NCBI RefSeq assembly: GCF_001647285.1
Contig: NZ_LRML01000005.1
Span: 62,001-126,000, forward strand
DNA from: Rufibacter roseus
GTDB lineage: Bacteria; Bacteroidota; Bacteroidia; Cytophagales; Hymenobacteraceae
Direction: 5' to 3'
Length of the DNA stretch: 64,000 bases
Shown here: positions 19,964-49,635 of the stretch, piece by piece
Position numbering within the stretch: position 1 is the stretch's first letter
How the letters are laid out: each line of letters starts with the position of its first letter
Notes under the pieces: generated by a model
What the model was told of the DNA's origin: nothing
The model's database searches: none
Seen by the model: only the letters and a program-made list of their open reading frames with translations
Program-made: the position numbers and the translations under genes

Positions 19964-19998
19964 AGACATAAGACACAAGACGTAAGACTCAAGACTTT
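19964..19998. repeat. heptamer array, left flank of four-helix-bundle unit A
   Basis: Five head-to-tail heptamers of the form AGACNNA (the last is AGACTTT). They are inverted relative to the right flank. The TGA stop of the restored gene falls inside the fourth unit. The array begins 20 bases upstream of the acyl-CoA dehydrogenase start. Confidence 0.85.
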
Positions 19999-20359
19999 TC
20001 TTTTGTGTTCTTGAGAAATCTGTCTTTGAAACCATTAATCATGCGCTGTACCACGCCAACTTGCTGTAGCAATAGCTGCAACCTTGCCTCTTCTACAAAG
20101 CCAAAGCTTTGTAGAAGAGTAATTGCGTTTCTAACTCAAAAGCAGAGCCTCTCGCAATGTTCAAAAATTGAATAAACTCTTTGTCACTGCCTCTTCCAGC
20201 TCCTTCGGCTATGTTAGAGGGAACAGAAACGGCTGACCTATTAATTTGTGACGTAAGACCATATTTTTCATTTGCAGGAAACGAAGCCGAAAGCTCGAAA
20301 ACCTTCTTAGCCAACGTCATTGCCTCTTGCCAAATCTTTAACTCTTTAAAGTTGTGCAT
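19989..20359 (-). pseudogene. S23-type four-helix-bundle protein (23S rRNA IVP family), frameshifted; unit A
   Basis: The intact frame encodes 88 residues (stop at 20093) of a classic S23/IVP protein: FKELKIWQEAMTLAKKVFEL, then LTSQINRSAVSVPSNIAEGA, then FLNIARGSAFELETQLL. The remaining helix, VEEARLQLLLQQVGVVQRMI, continues in another frame to a TGA at 19989-19991. A one-base indel therefore truncates a protein of about 123 residues. The break lies at a perfect hairpin (20088-20119). The family forms pentameric four-helix bundles related to the Avd protein of diversity-generating retroelements; its function here is unknown. The start codon sits one base from the right heptamer array. Confidence 0.8.
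20088..20119. repeat. perfect inverted repeat at the frameshift of unit A
   Basis: Two 14-base arms (CTCTTCTACAAAGC and its complement) separated by four bases, located where the reading frame of the four-helix-bundle gene breaks. Confidence 0.8.
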
Positions 20360-20360
20360 G

Positions 20361-20395
20361 AGAGTCTTGAATCTTATGTCTTACGTCTTGTGTCT
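20361..20395. repeat. heptamer array, right flank of four-helix-bundle unit A
   Basis: Five heptamers that read AGACNNA-like on the minus strand (TNNGTCT on the plus strand), inverted relative to 19964-19998. The array ends eight bases before the thiolase stop codon. Confidence 0.85.
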
Positions 20396-21582: not shown

Positions 21583-21600
21583 TTTCTTTTCTGTTTGAGT

Positions 21601-21639
21601 TAATGTGCTAATTATTAATGTGCTGATGTGCTAATTAAG
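21601..21639. repeat. short tandem-unit array upstream of the thiolase gene
   Basis: Five successive 7-8 base units, mostly TAATGTGC with TAATTAT and TAATTAAG variants, starting 19 bases upstream of the thiolase start. Together with 21691-21725 it brackets one interspersed palindrome. Confidence 0.65.
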
Positions 21640-21644
21640 CAACT

Positions 21645-21684
21645 CTATTTTCGGCATACTTTTGAAAAAATAGGTCCAAAACAG
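21645..21684. repeat. interspersed palindrome copy 10
   Basis: CTATTTTCGGCA and AGGTCCAAAACAG arms, enclosed between two short-unit arrays in the thiolase/FadB-like gap. Confidence 0.6.
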
Positions 21685-21690
21685 ATCCCC

Positions 21691-21725
21691 ACATTAATCA
21701 TTACTCACTATTCATTAATCATTAA
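21691..21725. repeat. heptamer array next to the FadB-like stop codon
   Basis: Five heptamers, consensus TTAATGA on the minus strand, ending three bases before the stop codon of the FadB-like gene. Unit and orientation resemble the right flank of the unit at 28.4 kb. No four-helix-bundle gene lies between this and 21601-21639. Confidence 0.7.
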
Positions 21726-27946: not shown

Positions 27947-27974
27947 TGAGTGAAGGAGTGAGTTTGTGAATGAG
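27943..27974. repeat. octamer array, left flank of four-helix-bundle unit B
   Basis: Four head-to-tail octamers near TGAATGAG (TTAATGAG, TGAAGGAG, TGAGTTTG, TGAATGAG). The first unit contains the TAA stop of the upstream arginase-fold gene. It is inverted relative to the array at 28428-28467. Confidence 0.8.
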
Positions 27975-28043: not shown

Positions 28044-28421
28044 ATGGAGCAGCTGAAGGAGCCAACAAAGGAGGAATTTATTACGCGGTTTAGACAACGG
28101 ACAAAGATGCTCGCGTTACAGGTGATTCGCTTTAGCCAAGAATTACCTAGAACTGAGGAAGCAATCATTATGAAAAGGCAACTCCTCCGGTCAGCTACGT
28201 CGGTGGCAGCTAATTACAGAGCCGCTTGCCGCGCGCGATCGGCAGCTGAATTTCATTCAAAACTCAGTATTTGCGTAGAGGAGGCAGATGAAACCCTTTT
28301 TTGGCTTGAGTTGCTGACCGAGTCAGAAACTGTTACTTCGTCCTCTACTGCATCACTCATACAAGCAGCATCAGAAATTTTGCTCATTCTATCAAAAGCC
28401 AGAAAAAACACTATCAAATAA
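28044..28421 (+). CDS. four-helix-bundle protein (TIGR02436/Avd-like); unit B
   Basis: A 125-residue all-helical protein. It has the TIGR02436 pattern: FRQRTKMLALQVIRFSQELP for helix 1, MKRQLLRSATSVAANYRAAC into helix 2, EFHSKLSICVEEADETLFWL for helix 3, and a terminal Leu/Ile-rich helix. It belongs to the same superfamily as unit A (S23) but to the other common subgroup. Function is unknown; relatives include the Avd accessory protein of retroelements. There is no reverse transcriptase nearby. The gene is enclosed by inverted octamer arrays. Confidence 0.85.
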   Translation: MEQLKEPTKEEFITRFRQRTKMLALQVIRFSQELPRTEEAIIMKRQLLRSATSVAANYRAACRARSAAEFHSKLSICVEEADETLFWLELLTESETVTSSSTASLIQAASEILLILSKARKNTIK

Positions 28422-28427
28422 TTTCTT

Positions 28428-28467
28428 TTTATTCACTCATTCACACACTCACTCATTCAATCATTAG
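28428..28467. repeat. octamer array, right flank of four-helix-bundle unit B
   Basis: Five octamers whose minus-strand consensus is TGAATGAG, matching the left flank in inverted orientation. The array begins six bases after the four-helix-bundle stop and ends three bases before the ATG of the cytochrome b5-like gene. Confidence 0.85.
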
Positions 28468-33605: not shown

Positions 33606-33687
33606 AGACACAAGATGTAAGACCTAAGATTCAAGACTTCTCTTAGTATGATTTTGTCTTGTGTCTTATGTCTTGAGTCTTGTGTCT
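33606..33687. repeat. paired inverted heptamer arrays with no gene between them
   Basis: Five AGACNNA-type heptamers (33606-33640), a 12-base spacer, then five heptamers in inverted orientation (33653-33687). The unit is the same as in unit A at 20 kb. The right array ends at the base before the era stop codon. It looks like an empty version of unit A lacking the four-helix-bundle gene. Confidence 0.85.
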
Positions 33688-46203: not shown

Positions 46204-47607
46204 TTAAATGTGAATCGCTCTGTTCTCCGTTGCAGCCAAACAAGCTTCTTTCATAGCCTCGGTATACGTTGGGTGGGCATGGCTCATGCGAGCCACGTCC
46301 TCGGCGGAAGCGCGGAACTCCATGGCTACCACAGCCTCGGCTATCATGTCAGCGGCGCGTGGCCCGATCATGTGCACACCCAGAATCTCATCCGTTTGAG
46401 CATCGGCTAAAACTTTCACAAAACCGTCGGTGTCCATAGATGCTTTGGCGCGGCCAGATGCTTTGAACGGGAATGAGCCGCTCTTGTATTTTACACCACG
46501 CTCTTTTAGTTGCTCCTCCGTAAAGCCTACACCCGCCACTTCTGGCCAGGTGTACACCACCCCCGGAATCAGGTTGTAGTTGATGTGTGGTTTCTGGCCT
46601 ACAATTTGCTCTGCTACCAATACACCCTCTTCTTCAGCTTTATGTGCTAGCATGGCACCGCGTACCACGTCACCAATGGCGTAGATACCCGGCACGTTAG
46701 TTTCCAGATGATCATTCACGGCAATCATACCGCGCTCACCCATCTGCACACCTGCGTTCTCCAGGCCTAAACCCTCAGTATACGGCTTACGACCCACCGA
46801 TACGAGGCAGTAATCTCCTTCAAACGTAATGGTCTCTCCTTTCGGGTTTTCAGCAGTTACTTTTACGGTATCGCCTTCTACTTGTGCACCCGTTACTTTA
46901 TGACCCAAGAAGAACTCGAAGCCTAGGGTCTTCTTCAGCACACGCTGCAGCTCTTTGCCTAAGGCACGGTCCATAGTGGCGATAATGGCATCGGCGTATT
47001 CCACTACTGATACTTTTGCCCCTAAGCGGGCATAAACTGACCCTAACTCCAAGCCAATGACTCCTCCACCAATGACGATCAGGTGCTTTGGTACTTCTTT
47101 TAAGCTTAAAGCCTCGGTAGAAGTGATAATGCGATTTTTGTCTACTGGCAGGAACGGAAGGTTCACTGGCTTAGAACCAGTAGCGATGATGGTTTTATCA
47201 GTTTCTATCTGCTGCTCCTGACCATCTTGCCCAGTCACTTTAATTGTGTTTTTGTTCACGAAAGAGCCCAGACCGTTGTACACGTCAATCTTGTGCTTCT
47301 TCATGAGGTAGGCAATACCATCGTTATTTGACTTGATCACGCCGCTTTTGCGGGAGATCATCTGCTCCAGGTTCACCTTCAGATTATCCAGCTCAATGCC
47401 GTGCGTTTTGAAGGTATGCGCTGCGTTATGAAAGTGCTCCGAAGAATCTAATAGTGCTTTGGATGGAATGCAGCCTACGTTCAAGCAGGTACCTCCCAGC
47501 ACAGAATACTTCTCAATAATGGCAGTTTTCAAACCTACCTGGGCACAGCGGATAGCCGCTACGTAGCCCCCAGGGCCGGAACCGATTACTGTTACGTCGT
47601 ATTTCAT
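46204..47607 (-). CDS. lpdA: dihydrolipoyl dehydrogenase (E3)
   Basis: A 467-residue FAD enzyme that reoxidises the lipoyl arm of 2-oxo acid dehydrogenases. The FAD loop GSGPGGYVAAIRCAQ is at residues 9-23 and the redox disulphide GGTCLNVGCIPSK has Cys41 and Cys46. An NAD-binding GGGVIGLELGSVYARLG and the C-terminal interface HAHPTYTEA, with the active-site histidine, complete it. It is the last gene of the operon but is cut off from sucB by four-helix-bundle unit C, whose left array begins only five bases before the lpdA start codon. Confidence 0.95.
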   Translation of the reverse strand: MKYDVTVIGSGPGGYVAAIRCAQVGLKTAIIEKYSVLGGTCLNVGCIPSKALLDSSEHFHNAAHTFKTHGIELDNLKVNLEQMISRKSGVIKSNNDGIAYLMKKHKIDVYNGLGSFVNKNTIKVTGQDGQEQQIETDKTIIATGSKPVNLPFLPVDKNRIITSTEALSLKEVPKHLIVIGGGVIGLELGSVYARLGAKVSVVEYADAIIATMDRALGKELQRVLKKTLGFEFFLGHKVTGAQVEGDTVKVTAENPKGETITFEGDYCLVSVGRKPYTEGLGLENAGVQMGERGMIAVNDHLETNVPGIYAIGDVVRGAMLAHKAEEEGVLVAEQIVGQKPHINYNLIPGVVYTWPEVAGVGFTEEQLKERGVKYKSGSFPFKASGRAKASMDTDGFVKVLADAQTDEILGVHMIGPRAADMIAEAVVAMEFRASAEDVARMSHAHPTYTEAMKEACLAATENRAIHI

Positions 47608-47612
47608 ATTTC

Positions 47613-47647
47613 AATTAGAAATTAAAAATTAGAAATTATGAATTTGA
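47613..47647. repeat. heptamer array, left flank of four-helix-bundle unit C
   Basis: Five head-to-tail heptamers with consensus AATTAGA (variants AATTAAA, AATTATG, AATTTGA). It is inverted relative to the right flank. It contains the TAA stop of the four-helix-bundle gene at 47636-47638 and ends in its last codons. Confidence 0.88.
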
Positions 47648-48001
47648 TTTCATGGTGATGAGAATTTTGCTGATGATTTTCCTTATCTCTAAGCAATCCT
47701 CATGAATGGAATCAAATGCATTTTCAGGAATATACTGGCTATCTTTTAGCAAGCGCAGCCAATATGAAGTTTCCCTAGCCTCTTTCGCGGCAATGTTAAG
47801 TTTATGAACGAAATCAGCTTTAGAACTTGCAGCAATTGCTTCTTCAACATTTGCACCAATGGAAGTACCGCTCCTAAGAAGTTGCTTCGCTAGTACAAAT
47901 TCTTTCTGCTCCTGAGTCAGGAACTTGTAGAGCTTAATAACCCTCAACGCAAAAGCATAGCTTTTATCAATGATGACATTTTCTCTTTTCCCCTCCTCCA
48001 C
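47636..48001 (-). CDS. four-helix-bundle protein (TIGR02436/Avd-like); unit C
   Basis: A 121-residue all-helical protein of the TIGR02436 group: KSYAFALRVIKLYKFLT, then LAKQLLRSGTSIGANVEEAI, then DFVHKLNIAAKEARETSYWL and a final Ile/Leu-rich helix. The start is GTG at 47999-48001, with an in-frame stop a few codons upstream inside the array, so no ATG start is possible. It is clearly homologous to unit B but far from identical. It lies inside the sucB-lpdA gap, enclosed by inverted AATTAGA arrays. Function is unknown. Confidence 0.87.
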   Translation of the reverse strand: MEEGKRENVIIDKSYAFALRVIKLYKFLTQEQKEFVLAKQLLRSGTSIGANVEEAIAASSKADFVHKLNIAAKEARETSYWLRLLKDSQYIPENAFDSIHEDCLEIRKIISKILITMKSNS

Positions 48002-48033
48002 AATTTCTAATTTCTAATTTCTAATTCATAATT
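48002..48033. repeat. heptamer array, right flank of four-helix-bundle unit C
   Basis: On the minus strand: AATTATG, three exact AATTAGA units, then AATT, ending at the base before the GTG start of the four-helix-bundle gene. The outer end is six bases from the sucB stop codon. Confidence 0.88.
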
Positions 48034-48039
48034 AAGTCG

Positions 48040-49635
48040 CTAGACTCCAAGCAACAATCTCATTGGATCTTCCAACAATTCCTTAACTCTTACCAAGAAG
48101 CTAACAGACTCACGGCCGTCAATAATGCGGTGGTCGTAAGACAGGGCTAGGTACATCATTGGTCTGATTACCACCTCGTTACCCACGGCAACCGGACGGT
48201 TCACAATGTTGTGCATACCCAAAATAGCTGATTGTGGCGCATTGATGATTGGCGTAGACATCATAGAACCGAACACGCCACCGTTGGTGATGGTGAAGGT
48301 ACCACCGGTCATTTCGTCAATACCCAGTTTATTCTCACGGGCACGCTTAGCCAAACGAATTACCTCTTTCTCGATACCATCTAAGCTAAGGCCTTCGGCG
48401 TTGCGGATAACCGGAACTACCAGACCTTTAGGAGCCGAAACGGCAATGGAAATATCGCAGAAGTCGTTGTACACAATCTCACCGCCGTCAATCTGGGCGT
48501 TCACCGCTGGCCACTCTTGAAGAGCCATGGTACATGCTTTGATGAAGAACGACATAAAGCCCAAGCCTACCTCGTGCTTCTCTTTGAACTTCTCTTTGTA
48601 CTTGGCTCTGATATCCATAATCGGCTTCATGTCTACCTCGTTGAAAGTAGTCAGCATGGCCGTTTCGTTTTTCACCGTTACAAGACGGCGAGCAACTGTT
48701 TTACGCAGGCTGCTCATCTTCTCGCGGCGGCTATTGCGTGAACCTGCAGCGGCCTGAGGCTGGGCAGCAGATTCTTTAGCAGCTGGCGCAGAAGCTGCGG
48801 CTGGTTGAGCTGCCGGACGAGCTTGTGCATTCTGAGCATCTTCTTTCGTAATACGTCCGTCGCGGCCAGTACCAGAAACATCAGATGCGGAAATACCTTT
48901 CTCTGATAATATTTTACCGGCCGCCGGCGATGGAGTTCCGCTGGCGTAGGTAGAGGCTCCGCCCGCTGGGGCAGAAGCAGCCTGAGCTGGTTGTGCAGCA
49001 GGAGCGCTTGCTTTAGGAGCCGATGCACCTGAAGTAGCCCCTACTTCAATGCGGCAAATGGTAGCACCTATTTCTACGGTTTCACCTTCCTTAGCCACGA
49101 TGCGCAGTACACCGGCCGCTTCAGCAGGAAGCTCAAAAGTAGCTTTGTCTGACTCAAGCTCGCAAAGAACTTCATCCATAGAAACCTGATCACCGTCTGA
49201 CTTCAGCCACTTGGCAATAGTCACTTCAGTAATAGACTCCCCTACTGTTGGAATATTAATATCTAAGGTCTCGCCAGAACCGCCACCGTTAGGAGTATTT
49301 TCAGCAGCTACAGTACTCTGTGGGTCAGTTACTGATTTAGATTCAGTAATGCCTTCTTTACTGGCAGACGTTGCTGGCTCTGGCGCCGATGTACCTTGAC
49401 CGGAACCATCAATCACGCAGATAACTTCACCAATGGCAATGGTGTCACCTTCTTGAGCCTTTATTCTTAAAACACCGGCAGCTTCGGCAGGCAGTTCAAA
49501 AGTGGCTTTGTCAGATTCAAGCTCACAGATGATTTCATCCATGGCAACTTGGTCGCCCTCGTTTTTTAGCCATTTGGCTATGGTTACTTCCGTGATGGAT
49601 TCGCCGACAACCGGCACTTTTACTTCTAAGCTCAT
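48040..49635 (-). CDS. sucB: 2-oxoglutarate dehydrogenase E2, dihydrolipoyl succinyltransferase with two lipoyl domains
   Basis: A 531-residue acyltransferase core of the 2-oxoglutarate dehydrogenase complex. Two lipoyl domains are present, each with [17 protein letters not shown] (lipoylated lysines near 43 and 164), joined and followed by Ala/Pro/Ser-rich linkers. A peripheral-subunit-binding segment ([21 protein letters not shown]) precedes the catalytic domain, whose [11 protein letters not shown] carries the active-site histidine. Most E2o proteins have one lipoyl domain, so the doubling is notable although known in Bacteroidota. It lies downstream of sucA. Confidence 0.93.

Follow-up and report, generated by a model that had tools for sequence, protein, structure and literature searches.

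Inverted period-7 and period-8 arrays around S23 four-helix-bundle genes: a candidate class of intergenic cassette

The gap between sucB and lpdA in Rufibacter roseus is taken up by a small gene lying between two arrays of AATTAGA heptamers in inverted orientation. The locus raises the question of whether gene and arrays constitute a single element, by what features the ends of such an element are defined, and whether it belongs to any recognized kind. We address this through the window (the whole stretch of 64,000 nucleotides that was analysed), the remainder of the genome, the genus, and S23 loci drawn from many phyla.

The unit at sucB-lpdA and its relatives in the genome

The gene (47636..48001, minus strand) begins with GTG and encodes a 121-residue four-helix-bundle protein of the S23 family, with scores of 104.8 bits against PF05635 (cut-off 33.8) and 113.6 bits against TIGR02436 (cut-off 24). 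It is the sole gene of the unit, which lacks a transposase, and it matches only this family (PF05635), plus bAvd below the bAvd cut-off. The 3' arm, as named relative to the S23 gene, occupies 47613..47644 and the 5' arm 48002..48033 (both minus strand). Each arm has a period-7 score of 21 and contains five AATT cores in 7-nucleotide steps, which begin on the plus strand at 47613, 47620, 47627, 47634 and 47641 in the former, and at 48002, 48009, 48016, 48023 and 48030 in the latter, inverted arm. The original prediction had counted five heptamers on one side, as is indeed the case, but about four and a half on the other, which also holds exactly five. Its placement of the S23 stop codon inside one array and of the start at the edge of the other agrees with the coordinates, the GTG (47999-48001) directly adjoining the array that begins at 48002. 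Both neighbors, named from sequence motifs in their open reading frames, are co-oriented with S23, namely sucB upstream (48040..49635, minus strand) and lpdA downstream (46204..47607, minus strand). Only 6 nt (48034-48039) separate the arrays from the sucB stop and 5 nt (47608-47612) from the lpdA start, and the unit thus occupies the gap exactly, as had been claimed.

A second cassette lies in the gap between the thiolase and acyl-CoA dehydrogenase genes. Its S23 gene (20063..20335, minus strand) contains an in-frame TAG and is probably a pseudogene, with both arms intact: the 3' arm at 19964..19996 (minus strand), with the unit AGACAYA, and the 5' arm at 20362..20395 (minus strand), recovered in the period scan. 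The third cassette comprises an S23 gene identified by profile match (28095..28409, plus strand) and two arms of period 8, the 3' arm (28431..28465, plus strand) reading CACTCATT and the 5' arm (27948..27973, plus strand) matching it in inverted orientation with a score of 25. In the era/der gap, directly after the era stop, inverted AGACAYA arrays with a short spacer form a gene-less cassette (33606..33687, without assigned strand). Two gene-less arrays with differing units also lie side by side at 21600-21725, neither assigned a strand: a period-8 array with the sco-type unit TAATGTGC (21600..21635), and a period-7 array of the ATTAATC type (21692..21725), a unit with which no S23 gene was seen in the genus.

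The genome encodes six S23 genes, each within inverted arrays and each time with a different unit (AATTAGA, AGACAYA, CCTGAGT, CAGTGAA, and two units of period 8). A scan of 380 kb of the same contig recovered 22 arrays of period 7 and 2 of period 8, with 0-4 for other non-harmonic periods and zero such arrays in the first-order random sequence used as its control; seven of these 24 arrays flank the four S23 genes of this stretch. The flanks of S23 genes in the relatives are not aperiodic, and the other intergenic gaps show less periodicity than the S23 loci, both in line with the original prediction: the score reached by 31 of 33 S23 loci of the genus, which are partly orthologous and hence not independent, is met in 17 of 215 such gaps (8%).

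Arrays around S23 genes across phyla

S23 or related four-helix-bundle proteins are found in 185 of the 247 Bacteroidota genomes sampled. From many phyla we assembled 141 S23 loci, selected by protein match alone; the sets beyond the genus stand independently of its loci. An array of period 7 or 8 is present on at least one side in 94% of them, as against 12.5% of control windows from the same loci and 8% of shuffles. Arrays of the same period flank both sides in 63% (control windows 0.7%, shuffles 0), and the arms are inverted with a score of at least 14 in 79% (control windows 1.4%, shuffles 0.7%). When the upstream arm is paired with the downstream arm of another locus, this level of matching is reached in only 4.8%, which bears out the proposal that gene and arrays form one unit. 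A separate gammaproteobacterial S23 set shows period-7 arrays in 24/24 cases and inversion in 22/24, and within Bacteroidota inverted arrays occur at 43/57 S23 loci as against 0/25 control loci encoding ParE toxins. Hence, the association of S23 with inverted arrays of period 7 or 8 is real and general. Examples were recovered from Clostridia, Planctomycetes, Chloroflexota, Acidobacteria, Ignavibacteriota, Betaproteobacteria, and one Methanophagales archaeon; no match to S23 was found in phage records.

On cyanobacterial plasmids cassettes split gene pairs: an AAA-ATPase (parA-like) gene is parted from parB, and cas6 from cas4 in the CRISPR operons on plasmids from Pseudanabaena galeata and from Anabaena sp. 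90 (L287, L289). An identical S23 cassette occurs on two Calothrix brevissima plasmids (L284, L285), within a larger gene block common to both. Co-orientation does not hold in Nostoc edaphicum (L286), where the cassette of the nrdB-nrdA gap is antisense. A Muribaculaceae locus (L141) has period-9 arrays on both sides of S23, and at one gammaproteobacterial locus (L371) the inverted arrays on each side are built of GGGAATC, the G-quadruplex heptamer of Xanthomonas.

The arms obey several common rules. Period 7 is found in 90 and period 8 in 45 of the 141 loci, and period follows the protein: the S23 tree requires 11 period changes as against 38 in shuffles, with 0/500 shuffles as low. Among pairs of S23 genes without homologous neighbors, those with 60-80% protein identity share the period in 91% of cases (baseline about 55%); their units are only slightly more similar and rarely the same. 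This supports the earlier suggestion that the ends follow a period rather than a fixed sequence. That the protein dictates the unit sequence was rejected as an explanation, given that about 66% identical proteins are found with unrelated units. In a guided fit of 183 arms, five cores are seen in 94, four in 13 and six in 29, with the caveat that short arms are detected less readily and the drop from five to four may be overstated. Scored one by one, the genus, the remaining Bacteroidota, the other phyla and the plasmid set each show the five-core peak, which recurs in the gammaproteobacteria (14/39 with five cores); arrays far exceeding five units occur in Cyanobacteria and some others. The 5' arm is C-poor (9% C, 27% G), with G exceeding C in 106/115 loci. 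The outer edges lie close to the neighboring genes, with medians of 4 nt between upstream gene and arm and 8 nt between arm and next gene (n=105). Co-oriented neighbors flank 32/32 cassettes in the genus, each of which runs in the same direction as both, and 84% of those from elsewhere, against a background of 49%.

With respect to pairing between the arms, the variable positions show no preference for the fold-back register, their complementarity being no higher there than at whole-unit shifts. Accordingly, selection for a perfect hairpin was rejected, and the absence of a preferred register fits repeated binding sites rather than one stem. A role as a stop-codon trap was likewise discarded, the excess being too weak to account for the unit, with stops in all three frames in 42% of upstream arms (19% shuffled) and 18% of downstream arms (9% shuffled).

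Most arrays contain no gene. Their density in the genus is about 5-10 per 100 kb in small samples, the figure for G008 counting one masked run and one tetramer repeat; the S23-less congener (G009) still has 8 per 100 kb. Small samples of three S23-rich genomes gave 1.7-6.7 per 100 kb, and in a small sample of 180 kb from three S23-less genomes of other families none were found. Within the genus most gene-less arrays have unit families in common with S23 arms: 39/50 are closer to S23 arms from the genus than to arms from other phyla (p about 1e-6). Gene-less arrays are rare in divergent gaps (2/39 as against 21%, p=0.01).

Turnover at intergenic sites and its possible basis

S23 is present in 15 of 16 congeners, and the cassettes of the genus occupy the sucB-lpdA, sucA-sucB, thiolase-acyl-CoA dehydrogenase (ACAD), scoA-scoB, tldD-tldE and mraY-murD gaps and a few others. 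Proteins from the same locus form clades, suggesting that the gene mostly keeps its place. Clean transposition, as implied by the original prediction, is not upheld: the sucB-lpdA gap exists as three unrelated alleles, with the S23 unit in 2 species, a gap of ~106 bp in 8 and a gap of ~300 bp in 6. These alleles and the at least 6 changes between them suggest that the unit replaces the whole gap. No target-site duplication was recognized, the sucB-lpdA gap being replaced as a block and relics of arrays persisting at some short sites. The scoA-scoB and thiolase-ACAD sites each require 8 allele changes, G008 being scored in this count as carrying the sco S23. In some alleles without S23 the arms remain but enclose another repeat, or a relic of an array persists. 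A motif like TCATCCTGAAAGGATCT occurs in another inverted element that replaces S23 at thiolase-ACAD (L207, L209, L211, L214) and at sucB-lpdA (L036, L041, L042, L047), and at the former site heptamer arms still surround this element.

In 16/16 species the era stop is followed at once, in the der-era gap, by a single array or a pair of arrays, with a unit family that varies and has switched at least 8 times on the species tree. Both arms belong to one family in every species except the G002/G007 pair. Such switches of both arms between units without common sequence are poorly explained by homologous conversion within arrays, and block replacement is favored. Recent copy-and-paste within genomes was rejected as the source of the cassettes, the copies being old: those of one genome are mostly <75% identical, and the loci sampled in five S23-rich genomes included no recent within-genome copies, the nearest case being one tandem pair at 86%. 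Recent transfer of a tract including the flanking genes is likewise unsupported, as the sucB-lpdA flanks of G015 are no nearer to G000 than to its own clade.

The known properties of the protein are pertinent in this context. S23 is a four-helix bundle without a known catalytic domain, akin to PDB: 2rld and PDB: 2gsc, both of which contain five chains, and Xcc0516 is a homopentamer that forms a toroid (PMC4990558). No nuclease or reverse transcriptase is present at the sucB-lpdA locus, and the genome yielded a single RVT_1 gene, unlinked and on another contig. Given the lack of a catalytic domain and of a linked reverse transcriptase, together with the age of the copies, any movement must be rare and proceed via other enzymes. 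The five evenly spaced units of free sequence suggest one unit per subunit of the pentamer, the two counts agreeing numerically only.

On the reading that we favor, with a probability of roughly 0.45, period and count define the ends of the cassette, which is probably bound by the S23 pentamer and exchanged as a block between intergenic sites. The cassette consists of an S23 gene and two inverted arrays of about five 7- or 8-nt units each, set flush between two usually co-oriented genes of one operon. The S23 homopentamer might bind one arm in single-stranded form, either in the read-through RNA of the operon or as ssDNA, holding one unit per subunit round the ring, much like TRAP with its repeats; S23 would then read spacing and number more than sequence. 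The matching arms could bring the two ends of the cassette together, and now and then the whole segment may, at an intergenic site, be swapped for another cassette. S23 would presumably assist both in cis and at gene-less copies, a role like the one proposed for RAYT on REPINs. Any cutting or copying must come from another enzyme, as S23 has no known catalytic domain. So construed, the element is most readily viewed as an intergenic cassette of a mildly selfish kind. TRAP is a ring of 11 subunits, each holding one short repeat, and its repeats are of the fixed GAG/UAG type; the S23 fold is unrelated to it, and ring binding by S23 is an analogy only.

The same protein ring might instead serve regulation rather than mobility, with S23 as a TRAP-like RNA-binding ring and the arms and gene-less arrays as a regulon that tunes operon neighbors post-transcriptionally. 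The excess of co-oriented neighbors and the scarcity of gene-less arrays in divergent gaps are both as expected of such a role, and post-transcriptional regulation was suggested for TAACTGA arrays by MacGregor 2015 (PMC4679880). However, conserved sites have changed their unit family, orthologous sites have lost S23 or hold something else in its place, a single genome has many distinct units, and the neighboring genes have no common function; we accordingly regard this alternative as unlikely, if still deserving serious attention. A further proposal would make the unit an intergenic version of the intervening sequence (IVS) of 23S rRNA, in which the arms are an RNA stem only, the S23 reading frame lies in the loop, RNase III cuts, and slippage makes the repeats. 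The Coxiella IVS indeed has the same gene family, inverted ends and the frame in the loop, and the predicted fold of the sucB-lpdA unit pairs its arms. Nevertheless, the lack of a preferred fold-back register, along with a five-unit peak and a protein-tracking period that slippage alone leaves unexplained, makes this rather improbable.

If the arrays were simple repeats spread by slippage and gene conversion, inside which S23 merely survives well, gene-less arrays could outnumber S23 genes and persist without them, as they do. This is difficult to reconcile with the restriction of inverted pairs to S23 as opposed to ParE loci of the same phylum, with a period that tracks S23 phylogeny, and with the lack of arrays in the 180 kb from S23-less genomes of other families, and we consider it very improbable. 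We give still less credence to an ordinary transposon bounded by terminal inverted repeats, a transposable unit being one of the two options raised in the original prediction. Inverted ends of constant polarity, a gene inside and a patchy distribution between species are reminiscent of one, but there is neither a transposase nor a fixed end sequence, target duplication is unrecognized, and near-identical dispersed copies are absent save for the plasmid pair inside a larger duplicated block. Moreover, the array relics at short sites make several of the absences resemble losses.

Relationship to known systems

Both halves of the cassette are known apart, as S23 reading frames in rRNA IVSs (PMC4990558) and as heptamer arrays (PMC4679880, PMC4692102). 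S23-containing IVSs of 23S rRNA have been described in Leptospira, Coxiella and Brucella (PMC4990558), and the cassette shares with them the protein family, a length of about 0.4 kb, a reading frame between terminal inverted repeats, and sense orientation in the host transcript. It differs from them in lying between protein genes (sucB and lpdA) rather than inside an rRNA gene, in having ends of about five tandem, locus-specific 7- or 8-nt units, and in having gene-less forms. Were the RNA-stem alternative right, the cassette would belong to the IVS kind.

As for the arrays, Rehm 2015 described GGGAATC heptamers in Xanthomonas and GGGGAYT in Nostoc, with 70-75 inverted pairs per Xanthomonas genome, mostly of four full units (about five cores), lying near the 5' neighboring ORF with few at divergent sites (PMC4692102), features that fit the rules of the cassette arms. 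TAACTGA arrays were reported by MacGregor 2015 from Beggiatoaceae, Cyanobacteria and Bacteroidetes, with the speculation that a repeat-binding protein might itself be a mobile element (PMC4679880). Like these known arrays (cyanobacterial STRR, TAACTGA, GGGAATC), those described here are tandem 7-nt intergenic units that are rare between divergent genes; what sets them apart from the arrays as published is the link to S23 and a rule for period and count that holds whatever the unit. Neither S23 nor four helix is mentioned in MacGregor 2015 (PMC4679880) or Rehm 2015 (PMC4692102), and a search of the open-access literature yielded no publication that connects S23 with heptamer arrays. An orphan protein family of many phyla is now joined to heptamer arrays that were previously without an agent.

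It is possible, with odds somewhat short of even, that these loci represent an unrecognized and very widespread class of intergenic cassettes, spanning many phyla of bacteria and present in one archaeal genome or more, with ends defined by spacing and number (five units of 7-8 nt, in keeping with the S23 pentamer) rather than sequence and movement by block exchange from one fixed intergenic site to another. If so, it would explain both the orphan S23 family and the heptamer arrays of Xanthomonas, Cyanobacteria, Beggiatoaceae and Bacteroidota. The quantitative rules (a period of 7 or 8, some five units per arm, inversion, and a C-poor 5' arm) make binding and movement testable and offer a testable job for this widespread protein. 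To our knowledge, nucleic-acid recognition by period and count is used by no known mobile element, and ends read in this manner would be a new mode of recognition among them.

One parallel is REPIN/RAYT, which likewise combines many gene-less inverted pairs with few gene-bearing copies, common end motifs and intergenic sites at 3' ends. However, RAYT is a transposase of the HUH type (HUH/Y1) and S23 a non-enzymatic four-helix bundle, and REPs are fixed in sequence, whereas the cassette unit varies freely. A relationship to diversity-generating retroelements is apparent at the level of the protein, given that Avd (PDB: 4DWL) and S23 (PDB: 2GSC) align as homologous four-helix-bundle proteins (PMC10053308) and that bAvd weakly matches the S23 protein of the window. 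Unlike those retroelements, the locus is devoid of reverse transcriptase, template and variable repeat. Insertion sequences and DNA transposons differ from the cassette in their transposase and in the fixed sequence of their terminal inverted repeats, the unit of the cassette arms differing by locus. No known kind combines these rules of period, count and inversion.
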